DNA from: Lyophyllum atratum
Lineage: Eukaryota; Basidiomycota; Agaricomycetes; Agaricales; Lyophyllaceae
NCBI GenBank assembly: GCA_014905825.1
Contig: JACGCN010000012.1
Span: 62,001-126,000 of the forward strand
Direction: 5' to 3'
Length of the DNA stretch: 64,000 nt
The notes under the pieces are model-generated. The model made no database searches and was not told the DNA's origin. It saw only the letters and a list, made by a program, of their open reading frames with translations. Shown here piece after piece: positions 4,569 to 64,000 of this stretch (position 1 is the first letter of the stretch; each line of letters starts with the position of its first letter). The translations under genes and the position numbers were made by a program.

Positions 4569-7500
4569 TTACTGGCTCTCTTCTGTTTCTATAGGGGCAC
4601 TCTCAACCGGCTCTGACTCCTCCACAACGGAACTCGGTTCTGCAGCTGCAGACACAGACTCGTCAGGATGTGTGGGTTCTGCTTCTGGCTCGACGACGCT
4701 ATCGAGGACAGCCTGTGGTCCAGGGGTGCTACCAGCTAAGACGACACTCTCCACTGTAGCCGGTTCTTCCTCTGTCTCGGCAGGTGTCACCTCCTCTTCC
4801 ACAACGAGTTCAGCGTCCTCCACAGTAGGTTCCTCCTGCAACTCGACCGGTGCGGTCTCCTCCTCCAGAGCCGGGGCAGGCTCCTCCACAACAGGCACAA
4901 CAGGCTCAACATCGACGATTGGCACAGGAGACAATGTCACGTCCTCGTCCGCCGTGGCATCCTCTGAAGCATTGATAGGCTCTGAGTGAACTGGCGCGGC
5001 GATGACTTCCGATTCAGGCTCAGGAACAGCAGCCGCGTCTTCGATCGCAGGCGCTTCGACCACAGGTTCGTCTACGGCAGCAGACTCCTCCGCGACGACA
5101 GGTTCTGCTTCAACAAATTCTTCGGATGCAGCAGGTGCGGGTTCGGGCTCGGCAGCAACAGCATCGGGCTGAGCAACCTCCTCGACTTCGGCGGCCGGCA
5201 CAGGTTCAGGACTGGCTTCAGTCTCTGGCGCAGCTTCCTCCTCGACAACAACAGGAACCTCTGCTTCTGCCTCAGGCCCTACGGCCTCTGGCTCGGCAGC
5301 GATAGGCTCTGAGTGCACTGGCGTGGCGATGACTTCCGATTCAGGCTCGGAGACCGCAGCGGCCTCTTCGATAGCAGGCTCTTCGACAGCAGGTTCCTCC
5401 ACGGCAGCAGACTCCTCGGCGACGATAGGTTGCGCTTCTATAGTTTCTTCGGATGCTGCGAGTGCAACTTCGGGCACGGCAGCAACGGCATCAGGCTGAG
5501 CAGCCTCCTCGACTTCAGTGGAAGGCACAGGTTCAGGACTGACCTCAGTCTCTATCGCAGATTCCTCCTCGACAACATCAGGAACCTCTGCCTCCGCCTC
5601 GGGTTCTACGGCCTCTGACTCGGCAGCAGAAGCAGCGGGGGTCTCTGTAGGTTCCGCTATTTCATCTGCGGGAGTGGGCTCCTCGATGTGAACCTCAGGA
5701 AATGAGGACTCCGTTTCCGCGGGAACGATGGGAGCGGGTGCTGCAGTTTCTGCTTCGACGGGAACGTCTGGCTCAGCTTCAGGCTCAGGAACAGCGGTCG
5801 TCAACTCGGCCTCGACGATCGCAGCAGCGGGAACGGGTGCGGGCTCCTCGATGGGAGCTACTGGTGCTGCTTCCGGCTCTGCCTCGACTTCGACGACAGC
5901 AGCAGGCACAGGTTCCACGATATCGTTAGCAGCAGTCTCTGGAGCAACTTCAACTTCGGCTACCTCAGGCTCGACAGCTACAACGGGCGTAGGTTCAGCC
6001 TCGACAATTGCTGGGGCAGCATCCACCTCAGATTCGACGACTGCAGCAACCACGGACTCCTCAGACTCCTCCACAGGCTCTGCTTCTGCAGCCGCTTCGA
6101 CGACAACCTCTGCAGGTTCGGTGGCTTCAGCATCGGGAACGGCGGATGAGGGCTCGACAGGTTCGAGAGCTGCAGGCTCAGCTACCGCGAGAACAGCGGG
6201 TGTGGGCTTGAATACGTCCTCCACGGAGGCTGCGGGTACAGGTGTTGGTTCAGCCTGCGTGGGAGTACGTTCAGAATCCTCGAGGGCAGCTTCAGGTTCA
6301 ACGGCCGTGGGCTCGACGATAGGCGTGGGCTGTGGTTCGGTGACAACCTCGGGAGCAGACTCGGGTTCAAGAGCAGGTGCCTCTGCTTCCGTCTCAGGTC
6401 CAGCAGCCTCGTTTTTCTCTTCAGCTTCGCCCTCCTGAGGTCGGCCGGGGAAGATGCAAATGAGGTCCGCGGATGGTGGGCCGTGGGGGTTTGTCGCGCT
6501 CTGGAGGAGATCAGCCTCTGTCAGCAGACGTGCGGGCTCTGTGGGCTCATCTGCGGGCTGGGCAGGGGCGGGGGCGGGTACGGCTGCTTCTTCAGCTTTG
6601 GGAATTTCACTGGAAGCGGGTGCCGTCCCCTCTACAGGTAGGGGTGCTTCAGGAGCAGCCAGTGGCTCCGAGGGAGCCGGAGTCGTCACGTTCTCGATGG
6701 TAGAACCATTCGTCGCAGGAGCCTCCGTTGCAGGTTCTTCAGGCTTACTGGCATGCACGGCGACGGCAGCAGTCACAGCGGCGGCTCCTGCGGCTATTCC
6801 AGCCACACCGTGCCCATTAGTCTTGCTCCCATCGTCAACACTCTTCTTCGCCACATCCACCGACTTCCTGGGCACCTCCACAGACTTCCTCGGCTTGGGC
6901 GACGGGATCCTCACTCTGACCGTGCCTGTATCGACCTTCTTCGATTTTGCCTGCTTCTCTTTCTCTTTCTCCTTCTCCTTACCCTCGTCCTCCTCCGCCA
7001 GAATCTCGCCCATCTCGCCCACCCGCGGGCTCTGTCCCGCCGTCTTCTTGCTCCTTGTCTCCTTCTCAGACGACGTGGACGCGCGACCGGACGTGAAGAA
7101 GCTGAAGCGCTTCATGGTAGAACTGAAAGTGATCTCAGACTTGAACGATCTGGGCGAGGACGGCCGAGTGCGGCCTGCGGAATCAGGTGACGCGGTTGCT
7201 GATGAATTCTCAGGCGACAAGGGCGTTAGTGGTGCCGGGCGCTTAAACGCCTGTTCAATGACGAGCCACTCAAGGCGTTTTCCGTCCACCTCGACGTCGG
7301 TTAGCGTGCTCTTGAGCTTGCAGATAATGAAAGTAGGCCACGTCGACGAAATAGGGTCCAAGAGCGCATCGCTCCAGAAGTCGATGAAGGCCTCGTCCAG
7401 CTGGGTCAGCGAGACGTGGGTGAACTTGGAGATAGGTTTGGCTGCTTCTTTGGGCTTGGGCTGCTCGACCTTGACAAGTGCTCGGGGTGCGTCCAGGGAC

Positions 7501-25047: not shown

Positions 25048-25784
25048 CGAATGGCTCATGCCCATGACATTGAGATCGGCCAACATACCCAAAGTACATG
25101 GGCGATGAGATCGTTCACGATGATCAGAAATCATTGTCTCTTATTCCTCGAGTGACGATATCGGCAGGCTCAACAGAGTCTGATGGAGTGTTTTGTTAGT
25201 TAGATGTCGAAGGGAGCAAGACAGTCACATACCGCGAACGAAATATCGGCAGGCTCAACAGAGTCTGATGGAGTGTTTTGTTAGTTAGATGTCGAAGGGA
25301 GCAAGACAGTCACATACCGCGAACGAAATCGACGGACTTGGGGGTTGGGTGATTTCAGACAGGACAAAGAAAGGCGATACCCAAAATACCTCGCACGGAG
25401 TACAACGAAGCGCGCATAACGAAAATAGGAACCCAGGTGTCGTGTGGATAGCGGCCTAAGGTCGAATGGCTCGTGATATTGAGATCGGCCAACATACTCA
25501 AAGTACATGGGCGATGAGATCGTTCACGATGATCGGAAATCATTGTCTCTTATTTCTCGAATGACGATATCGACAGACTCAACAGAGTCTGATGGAGTGT
25601 TTTGTTAGTTAGATGTCGCGGGAGCAAGACAGTAACATACCGCGAACGAGATCGACGGACTTGGGAGTTGGGTGATTTCAGAGGGGACAAAGAAAGACGA
25701 TAACCAAAATACCTCGCACGGAGTACAACGAAGCGCGCAGAACGGAAATAGAAAACCCAGGTATCGTGTGCATAGCGGCCTAAG
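25048..25784. repeat. Compound tandem repeat: about 324-bp unit with internal 85-bp duplication
   Basis: An 85-bp unit starting at 25158 is repeated without change at 25243-25327. A longer unit is repeated around it: the block at 25330-25460 recurs at 25653-25783 (offset 323), and the block at 25071-25157 recurs at 25480-25566 (offset 409, which is one long period plus the 85-bp insertion). Copies differ by scattered substitutions. Minus-strand frames through the copies are similar to one another but are broken, so no intact product is claimed. Confidence 0.85.
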
Positions 25785-60600: not shown

Positions 60601-61556
60601 GAAGGGAAGGGGCAGAGGTGTGGAGTGTATGTGGTGGATGCGGTGAAGGGGAGTGTGGTCTATCGAGCGAGTTTGCCGGCTGCTGGGGGGGAGGCTGGGA
60701 AGGAGGCGTGTGATGTGAAGGCGGCGCTGGTGGAGAATTGGCTGGTGTATCATTATTATGATCCGGAGTGGCAGGGTTCGGGACTCACGAAGGGGTGGAG
60801 GATGGTTAGTGTGGAGTTGTATGAGGGTGGTGGCCCGGATGAGAAGACTATGAGGTATGTCGGTGTTCCTTTCGTTTGGCGAGCGTTCTTGATTGGAAGC
60901 GACTATAGTTCGGACATTTCGTCGTATTCGGATGGGAGCGTCGATGTCGTGGCATTCGAGCAATCGTATGTGTTTCCGCACGCTATTAGTGCTCTCTCGC
61001 CCACCTCGACCAAGTTCGGGATGACTTCTAAGGACCTCATAGGTCAGTTGGGCTAGATTCCTCACCCCCTTCTCCTCGGTACTAAACTCCGTCGAATCCC
61101 TTAGTCGCGAGCAGGACACACCAGATCCGATCAATCCAACGCCGCCTCTTGGACCCTCGCCGTCCGAACCGCAAAGTCACTGCGGAGGAACAGGAAGAGT
61201 TCCTCGTTCCGTACGATCCTGTCCTCGCTAACGATCCACGGCGCGTCTTGTCGCACCACTATGAGGTAACCCCCCCTCCTCTCCTTTCATTACCTCTCTG
61301 ACACGGTAACCAACAGGTGGCGAATATCCAACGCATAGTCACATCGCCTGCGCTCCTGGAATCGACCTCGCTCGTGTTCGCGTACGGCCTCGACATGTTC
61401 CTCACGCGCGTTGCGCCTTCGGGGACTTTCGATGTGCTGAGTGAGAACTTCAATAAGGCACAGCTGGTGCTGACTGTCGGTGGGTTGGCGCTGGCGATTA
61501 TGTTCACGAAGCCGATGGTGAGGAGGAAGAGGCTGAGGGAGAGGTGGTACCAATAG
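57654..61556 (+). CDS. EMC1: ER membrane protein complex subunit 1
   Basis: Large lumenal and membrane subunit of the EMC, which inserts transmembrane helices into the ER membrane; 1130 aa. Exons 57654-57942, 57994-58053, 58111-58366, 58433-59042, 59103-59207, 59259-59510, 59573-59953, 60004-61042, 61105-61265 and 61317-61556 join in phase. A signal peptide (MRWSLHRLLGACAALLLLTA) precedes DVGVVDWHKLLIGVPLVGAP, ILTATANNVLAALNPDDGSV and AWRHIFESDDRIAGYY, the start of the PQQ-like propeller. The C-terminal part has PHAISALSPTSTKFGMTSKD, THQIRSIQRRLLDPRRPN, VLANDPRRVLSHHYEV, TSLVFAYGLDMFLTRVAPSG and the final membrane segment QLVLTVGGLALAIMF before a basic tail. These C-terminal blocks are typical of EMC1. 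Confidence 0.94.
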
Positions 61557-61786
61557 AGGGACTAAAACGCTGGTGTGCGCTATTTATTCTACTTAATGGA
61601 TAGAGGATTTATTTGGTGCTTGGTCGTGTTCGGTTTCGTGACTTGCGCTGTAGAGTTTCTGCATCTTCGTCTGTTCCTCTATTTTGTGAAGCAGGCCTTG
61701 AATACTAACAAGTGGCATGGGCTATCGACTCATTTTTATAGTGACGGGTAAGGGGATAAGAAGAACTATCCGATGCTACAAATGGA

Positions 61787-64000
61787 CTACATGAGGTTAC
61801 CCTGAGCACATCCGAGTAACTTTTTCGAAAATACTCTTGCCTCCTTCTCCGAAAACTTCCATCTCCCCACTTTGTTTGCAATCTTTTGACCTCTAATCTC
61901 CTTGACAATGCCTTCCATCTGAGCCCTTACAGCGTGAACCTTGACACGTACAAGGTCATGATTTTTGCTGATGAAAGATGAAATGGCTGAAATCCATTCT
62001 TCTGTCTTTACTATAATGGCCTTGGAAAGAGACTTTGCACTGATGCCGTGCATGAGTATCACAATCACTGAAGGAATCATAAATGCAGAGAGAAGGATTA
62101 TAATGTCAGACAACATACTGATGACACATGTCAAGAGGTCTGTGTCTGTCAATGTCTTTATTTGCGTCAGTTGGCTCCCTATTTGCTGATGAGATAAGAA
62201 TATACCTGGACATGGACGTCAAACCCGTGGATAAGAGTTGACATGAGGCAAGTCAAGGCTGTCTTTGCAAGTATATAAGTAATTATAGAAACAATATGTG
62301 TTGGCAGAAATATACTTCATTTTCTTTTGTCTGAAAGGGACAATCATGAACACCTGATGAGTGATGAGCTTTACAGTGGGAAGAATTTTAGACATACTAG
62401 CTAAATATGACTGGTGATAAGATAAAAAACAGAGGGAAATGATGCAAAGACTCACCATCTACATGCAACCGGCATTCAGAAAATCGGCTAACAAATACTT
62501 CGGATGGAAAATGTAAATACTCACCAACTATGCAAGGATAGCACCCAGGACATGAGCTGACAGAGAATTCAAATGGACGACACACAGACTCACACCCTAA
62601 TCAGAAACAGTTCTCAAGGCATCAGCTGGTGAGGGATCAGATCAAGGATGCACATGCTTACACGCTATATGAAACCAGCACCCAGAATATCAGCTGATAA
62701 AAAATGCAAATGGAGGAGGCACAGACTCACAACCTACACATGAACAGTAACACAGACATCAGCTAGTAAATTCAGATAAAGAATGGATAGACTTACACGC
62801 TATGCATAAGCAGCACCCAGGGCATTAGCTGGTAAAGAATTCAGATGAAGGATGCATGACTTACTAACTATACGGAAATAGCACCCATGGCATCAGCTAC
62901 TGAAGTATTTGGATGGAGGATGCGCAGACTTACACGCTACCCAGGACCAGCGAGTAGAACATCAGCCAGTAAAGATGATGGAAGATGGGAAACACACAAT
63001 CTACACAGGAATAGAATCCATGATGTCAGCTAGCGAAAAATTCTAATGGAGGATATACAGACTCACATCCTGTACAGACAGAACATCCAGAACATCAGCT
63101 GACAAAGGTTTCAAATGGCGAATGTACAGACTTACGTGCTATACAAGAATGGCATTTTGGACGTTAGCTGATGAAGAAATCATAGAAAATGCACAGACTT
63201 ACATCCTGTATAGAAATAGCACCGGGATATCAGCTGGTGAAGAAGTCAGATGGTGGATATAAAAACTTGCCAACTATGCAAAAACAGCACCCAAAATATC
63301 AGCTGGTGAAGAACATAGATAGAAGATGCATAGACTCACATTCTACACAGGAACAGCACTCAGAAGATCAGCATACAAAAAATCCACATGACCCATGCAA
63401 ACACTCACATCCTACAGGATAACAATGTCCAGTACATTAGCTGGTAAAGAATTCAGATAGGCACAGACTCACATCCTGCATAGAAGTAGCACCCAGGACA
63501 TAAGCTAGTAAAGAATTCAAACGGAGGATACACAGACTCACCCACTATATAGAACAGCATTTCAAACATTAGCTGATGGAGAAATCAAATGGAAGATGCA
63601 TAGACTCACATTCTAACCAGTAACGACACCCAGGACATTAGCTAGTGAGGAACTCAAACGTCAAATGCAAGGCATACATTCTGCATAGGAACAGGGCCCA
63701 GGACATCAGCTAGGGAAGAATTCAGATGCAGCACACACAGACTCACCCACTACATAGTAACAGCACCCAGAACATCAGCAGGTGAAGAACTCAGATGAAC
63801 AATGCCAAGACTCACATCCTACATAGCGACAGTACCCAAGACATCAGGTAGCGAAGAATTCAGATAGATGTACAGCCTTACGTGCTATGCAAGAACAGGA
63901 ATTTGGACGTTAGCTGATGAATGAGTCAGATGGAAGATGTACAGACTCACATCCTATACAGAATAGCACCCAACACATTAACAGGTGAGAAATTCGAATC
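61787..64000 (-). CDS. Membrane protein gene with an array of 3-nt micro-exons (partial, runs off the right edge)
   Basis: Unrecognised gene. Its 3' end is conventional: exons 62330-62316 (15 nt), 62262-62206 and 62155-61787 join in phase 0. They encode TALTCLMSTLIHGFDVHVQ, then TLTDTDLLTCVISMLSD, a membrane segment (IIILLSAFMIPSVIVILMHG), and a basic soluble tail ending KLLGCAQGNLM. Upstream, 24 successive 3-nt exons can be read between 63953 and 62398, each flanked by a TAG or CAG acceptor and a donor (13 GTGAGT, 7 GTAAGN, and GTATGT, GTATGC, GTGTGT and GCAAGT once each). In phase 0 no micro-exon is a stop codon and the frame stays open into the last exon; the other two phases meet stops. 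The 5' end is outside the window. Splicing itself is inferred, not observed. Confidence 0.7.
62398..64000 (-). repeat. About 69-bp minisatellite in which each unit is an intron plus one 3-nt exon
   Basis: Tandem units of 58-69 bp, most often 69. In minus-strand order each runs donor, CATCCTCCATCTGAATTC-like spacer, branch-point CTRAY inside AGCTRATG, CTGGGTGCTGTT-like spacer, YAG, then three variable bases. Three-base exons start at (plus coordinate of the lowest base) 63951, 63882, 63816, 63747, 63678, 63610, 63542, 63473, 63409, 63340, 63271, 63203, 63136, 63067, 62998, 62934, 62865, 62797, 62731, 62662, 62594, 62525, 62456 and 62398. Read on the minus strand they are GAT (six), AAT and CGT (three each), TGG, CAC and TTG (two each), and ATT, TTA, GTT, GGT, ATG and CTA (one each). 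Introns between them are 55-66 nt, mostly 65-66. The array continues past the window edge. Confidence 0.9.

Follow-up and report, generated by a model that had tools for sequence, protein, structure and literature searches.

The window analyzed here, a 64,000-nt stretch of the Lyophyllum atratum genome (C24:62001-126000 in an assembly of 64.76 Mb), ends in the 3' part of a minus-strand gene, gene A, that encodes a putative GTPase and harbors a tandem array of candidate exons of one codon each; the architecture is very probably real, and striking. Between window positions 62398 and 63953 on the minus strand, 24 consecutive units each consist of a YAG acceptor, three nucleotides, and a splice donor (exactly 3 nt in 24/24), with 23 complete introns of 55–66 nt. 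The donor is GT in 23 of these units and GC in one (TTG|GCAAGT, triplet start at window position 63273). An earlier note on this DNA had described the same 24 single-codon units, with the same splice letters and intron lengths, and this description was borne out, as were the stop that it placed at 61787 and the 3' exon that it placed at 62330, both of which agree with the sequence. Its estimate of at least 24 units holds for the window but falls short of the full extent: the array passes the window end and runs to C24:127033 (window-equivalent 65033), giving 40 units in total with introns of 53–78 nt, and the start codon of gene A, at C24:128440, also lies outside the window. Read in phase 0, the 40 triplets give MFSFDGRHHWDNINLDDHDWNNWDDNLDHDIRLRVRGLML. 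The parts of gene A that lie in the window are the following.

63954..64000, minus strand: 3' portion of an array intron, cut at the window end; 16 triplets and the GTPase-domain exons lie upstream, outside the window.
62398..63953, minus strand: 24 one-codon exon units, from GAT (63953-63951) to CTA (62400-62398), with introns of 55–66 nt; 16 further units lie beyond the window.
62331..62397, minus strand: intron (gtatgt...ttcag) that follows CTA, the last triplet.
62316..62330, minus strand: predicted small phase-0 exon ACAAAAGAAAATGAA (TKENE), placed by donor, acceptor, and frame.
61787..62185, minus strand: last exon, encoding the C-terminal domain (a hydrophobic segment, then a polar tail) and ending in the stop at 61789-61787; its acceptor is uncertain, and the homologous open frame spans 61790-62167.

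The public partial model of gene A (P0001, FPV67DRAFT_196314) matches the DNA exactly and contains eight introns of 49–64 nt, the last of which ends precisely at the acceptor of triplet 1. Past this triplet the model enters the next intron (MVSEHH) and then stops; by eye, the model of a paralogue (P0002, copy C below) also runs from its first triplet into the intron that follows. The protein begins with an acidic stretch, followed by the GTPase domain, and inspection by eye revealed a C-terminal hydrophobic segment and no N-terminal hydrophobic (signal-like) stretch. The motifs GRANAGKT, DSLG, and TKRD match the P-loop GTPase motifs GxxxxGKT, DxxG, and TKxD. The match to PF01926 (MMR_HSR1) was weak (23.8 bits against a cut-off of 21.9) and the matches to NCBIfam GTPase models were also weak, far under cut-off, which together indicate that the G domain is that of an MMR_HSR1-type GTPase, though only a distant one. 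A PDB profile search returned one weak P-loop match, and the C-terminal domain had no match in that search or in Pfam.

Within the array region, exon length 3 gave 24 matches forming one chain of 24, whereas other exon lengths gave no matches (0, 2, 4–6, 8–10, and 12), one each (1 and 7), or two (11), none of them chained. The remaining 62 kb of the minus strand held 14 length-3 matches and no chain, and the plus strand of the window held 20, with a longest chain of 2. Over 500 dinucleotide shuffles of the array region (1.6 kb), the mean was 0.58 matches and the maximum 4, again with a longest chain of 2. Searches of the same genome at the DNA and the protein level located at least three array loci, namely A with 40 units, B (C81) with 41, and C (C24:888-889 kb) with 18. 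The exon length was exactly 3 nt in 99/99 units across these three paralogues, in a search whose pattern itself required that length and the splice letters. Because no interval spanning two unit lengths occurs in any of the three arrays (longest intron 78 nt), no pattern-failing unit is hidden between the units counted.

Over the 37 inner units of gene A, the acceptor AG, the donor G, and the G at position +5 were each conserved in 37/37 and the donor T in 36/37 (the exception being one GC), amid other intron columns that have drifted to an average of about two-thirds consensus. For all three arrays, donors were GT or GC in 98/99 units and acceptors YAG in every one; both belonged to the search pattern, but no unit was skipped. 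A branch-like motif, YTRAY, was present in 91/96 introns (34/39 in A, 40/40 in B, and 17/17 in C), its A mostly 24–25 nt from the intron end. Donors in the gene A array are stronger than those of the introns in its public model: exact GTRAGT occurred in 32/40 of the former and 2/8 of the latter, and one of those two belongs to the intron directly before the array. A structured non-coding RNA array hosted in the gene, made up for example of snoRNA-like units, would fit a regular series of tandem units, each about 69 nt long, but the best-conserved columns are the donor, the branch-like site, and the acceptor, and no Rfam family reached its gathering score in 61000-64000; we find this explanation scarcely credible.

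Evidence for coding comes from the reading frame. Phase 0 is shared by the end of the pre-array exon (…GFFM) and, as judged by eye, by the small exon that follows the array. No stop codon occurs among the 99 triplets in phase 0, where about 5 would be expected from column composition, and the joined triplets contain 1 stop in phase 1 and 17 in phase 2. This absence of stops supports coding, short of proof. The residues D, H, N, R, W, Y, and F, a Mycena set that was picked after viewing both sides of the comparison, account for 27/40 phase-0 residues in A, 32/41 in B, and 10/18 in C, compared with 5 and 12 (A), 6 and 4 (B), and 5 and 3 (C) in the other two phases; 5000 column shuffles gave p = 0.001, <0.0002, and 0.014 for the phase-0 enrichment in A, B, and C, respectively. 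The last triplet CTA and its GTATGY donor are kept in all three paralogues, and the TKENE exon of gene A corresponds to GTEDK in B and C.

The three arrays differ in length and in how their parts have diverged. B and C carry 41 and 18 units, respectively, despite C-terminal exons that are 98% identical. Mean pairwise differences between units were higher in the triplets than in the flanks for all three copies (0.63 vs. 0.45 in A, 0.60 vs. 0.15 in B, and 0.65 vs. 0.16 in C). Within copy B, a 5-unit block occurs twice with 0–1 differences per intron, and the 97 unit pairs whose flanks differ by 5–10% showed 52% difference per triplet site. Triplets are hypervariable in all three arrays, a pattern that suits either diversifying selection on the residues or strong constraint on the introns, two causes that these data do not separate. 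We also considered a neutral minisatellite, that is, a young tandem repeat with splice-like motifs present by chance, in which B and C would be uniform because they are recent. The units of B and C are indeed mostly 69 nt and alike, the two copies of the duplicated block in B hardly differ, and the 11 unit pairs of copy B with flank differences below 2% have equal triplets. However, the AG and GT of copy A are kept although its flanks differ by 0.45 per pair, the triplets of B and C vary four times as much as their flanks, which a homogenized neutral repeat would not produce, and a donor-like V-S appears at the same point in several Mycena models and one from Galerina. Such an origin is very improbable.

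Three further observations concern the individual copies. In copy C, at L012:7966 (C24:888966), the triplet TCG is followed by CTGAGT instead of GTGAGT, and the donor is lost. In copy B, about 6.6 kb (C81:71804-78429, a stretch read in part) separates the first GTPase exon from the remaining gene, and this copy is probably disrupted. In gene A, the stretch from TKENE to the C-terminal exon (window 62150-62205) differs by 2 nt from B and C in the aligned frame, as judged by eye.

Homologues in other mushrooms, of which those from Mycena were compared as public protein models, were scored at LGSGxP, the conserved motif that ends the pre-array exon and is reached by 27 of the 106 proteins in the set. 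In seven of the 27 models the motif is followed by a single residue (M, F, I, M, D, Y, D) and next by V-S, as if the GTRAGT of the following intron had been translated; these come from six species (L. atratum, M. albidolilacea, Galerina marginata, M. metata, M. galericulata with two models, and M. epipterygia). Another seven have V-S directly, as on read-through of intron 1, and four have a D/H/Y/R/W-rich stretch (e.g., FRRFYDYDNDSHHDRRDYFRRNHYYDDNDD-VSLPF in P0105) resembling the phase-0 triplets; Mycena olivaceomarginata B0H14DRAFT_2615537 and B0H14DRAFT_2646621 and M. albidolilacea DFH08DRAFT_819618 are models with such stretches. In P0036, SA(Y/C)SLCSL recurs after 24 residues, equal to 72 nt (by eye), and looks like a read-through of tandem introns. 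A protein search with a Mycena C terminus returned eight proteins, including one new relative, P0106. A search with a 13-row alignment gave 225 matches, and no further array evidence appeared in 12 proteins new among the 120 matches listed or in two earlier ones that were read. Many public Agaricomycetes models of this GTPase family have only 250–360 residues and stop at the array position or short of it, which suggests that gene prediction fails at this point.

Taking together the phase-0 flanks, the missing stops, the conserved splice sites, the block duplication, the differing paralogue lengths, and the Mycena residues, we infer that the units are genuine 3-nt coding exons amplified along with one intron. 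Our favored reading, which we hold with good confidence, is therefore a GTPase gene containing an array of micro-exons, in which the 3-nt exons would be spliced in order and the array would have grown by tandem duplication of an intron plus a codon. The proposed order is G-domain exons ending in phase 0, then 40 one-codon exons, a short exon, and lastly the C-terminal exon that encodes the hydrophobic segment. Fungal introns this short can be recognized across the intron (intron definition) and removed singly, so that definition of a 3-nt exon need not be required. Every array intron is delimited by a donor, in most cases GTRAGT, and a YAG acceptor, and usually has a CTRAY-like branch site some 25 nt before its 3' end; the introns would be removed one after another by intron definition, joining the codons in order. 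The mature mRNA would then contain triplet runs such as GATAATTTGGATCAC. Duplication of the intron and codon together, also in blocks, would add one residue per copy in frame, and the earlier proposal of just such an amplification is supported. In the product, a variable-length linker rich in D, N, H, R, and W would connect the GTPase domain to the hydrophobic C terminus; its role can only be guessed at, perhaps that of a flexible tether of acidic, aromatic, and basic residues close to a membrane.

Several points weigh against this reading. The absence of stops counts for less than 99 independent trials would because the units are related by duplication, and the residue enrichment carries its after-the-fact choice of set. 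Copies B and C may be decaying, given the CT donor in C and the 6.6-kb gap in B. The 3' end of gene A is unsettled, in that it may need an acceptor other than that of B and C or may contain a frameshift. Nine of the 27 models fit none of the three patterns: P0020 stops short of the junction, P0030 reads M-V-T, P0002, P0003, P0016, P0017, and P0051 differ otherwise, and P0004 and P0005 of Mycena sanguinolenta join the pre-array exon straight to the C-terminal exon. Outside the 27, P0127 reaches the junction with none of the three patterns. The direct joining of flanking exons in P0004 and P0005 is what a composite intron would predict, with the outer exons joined directly in gene A, the triplets absent from the mRNA, and the internal sites being relics or stepping stones of a repeat that grew within an intron; since both outer exons are in phase 0, the frame would survive skipping of every triplet. 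Yet a composite intron leaves unexplained why AG and GT barely vary from unit to unit amid drifting neighbors in A, why stop triplets are missing, and why the phase-0 residues resemble the Mycena stretch at the same point, and we judge it improbable.

If the triplets are indeed spliced as exons, their main use could also be variable skipping, which would yield many linker variants per cell or strain. The frame holds for any subset of triplets, few columns of the unit vary as much as those of the triplet, and the donor loss seen in copy C should cost one residue only, with the frame kept. The donors and acceptors are, however, mostly strong and would suit constitutive splicing, and we think skipping a rather unlikely main use. 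We lean slightly toward the broader view of a codon-per-exon minisatellite recurring in Mycena, Galerina, and Lyophyllum, with an intron and one codon as its heritable unit and with conserved introns and hypervariable exons; the protein linker would grow, shrink, and change residue by residue in frame, possibly with skipping. That the variation serves recognition or the cell surface is speculative. Should transcripts confirm the array, about 40 splicing events in a row, each delivering 3 nt, would provide a severe test of how splice sites 3 nt apart are recognized. Introns would here let a coding repeat expand in frame by single residues, and the usual rule would be turned around at this locus, with more variation in exons than in introns. 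The array could also explain why many public models stop near the junction, and similar arrays could hide elsewhere.

Among the matches listed for literature on fungal micro-exons, 3-nt exons, arrays, and intron gain (titles and abstract openings, mainly of non-subscription sources and without bioRxiv), no tandem single-codon exon array was found. Isolated exons of 1–3 nt and micro-exon genes (MEGs) are known already, and the array would be extreme even among the latter. Ratchet (recursive) splicing points consist of AG followed directly by GT, with zero exonic nucleotides. The earlier note had offered recursive splicing as an alternative, but no such zero-length AG|GT site occurs in the array region, and ordered splicing of the triplets would merely appear stepwise. 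The array shares with ratchet splicing and with stwintrons closely packed splice sites used sequentially; in stwintrons one intron is nested in a splice site of another (PMC5639578), whereas every array intron of gene A is complete.

The MEGs of Schistosoma mansoni have many short exons (3–81 bp according to the abstract and 6–81 bp according to the introduction of the source, 15 bp being commonest), long introns of 0.1–5 kb, and variable secreted proteins (PMC10526429). They resemble gene A in their many very short exons and variable proteins, and differ from it in that its array exons are all 3 nt, its array introns are 53–78 nt, and its host is a GTPase gene; the long introns typical of MEGs are absent here, and by eye the protein, with its acidic start and GTPase domain, does not look like a secreted product. 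Aphid bicycle and megacycle genes contain unusually many small internal exons, almost all of phase 2, with more than 100 microexons in one gene (PMC9168663). The likeness lies in many small internal exons sharing one phase, which is phase 0 in the gene A array, and no tandem intron-plus-codon unit is described for bicycle genes in the available part of that source. Fungal ultra-small exons include the 1-nt exon of CYP621A in Fusarium, which has transcript support, and two 3-nt exons in Dactylellina lipS (PMC12940212, PMC5639578), as well as a regulated microexon in Xlr2 of Trichoderma (PMC11121469). As described there, such exons are single and keep a conserved motif or act as a switch, whereas the gene A array would encode an entire segment of the protein. 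Fungal introner-like elements are similar spliceosomal introns that multiplied recently (PMC4457414), with hundreds of copies in unrelated genes; here the copies are tandem, each with a codon, at three related loci (a lower bound). An introner burst was considered and rejected; own-genome DNA searches gave only those related loci.

Elsewhere in the window, two other tandem repeats were noted: a 327-bp unit at 4974-5627, in two copies with an 85% match, and an 85-bp unit at 25158-25329, in two copies with no difference between them.
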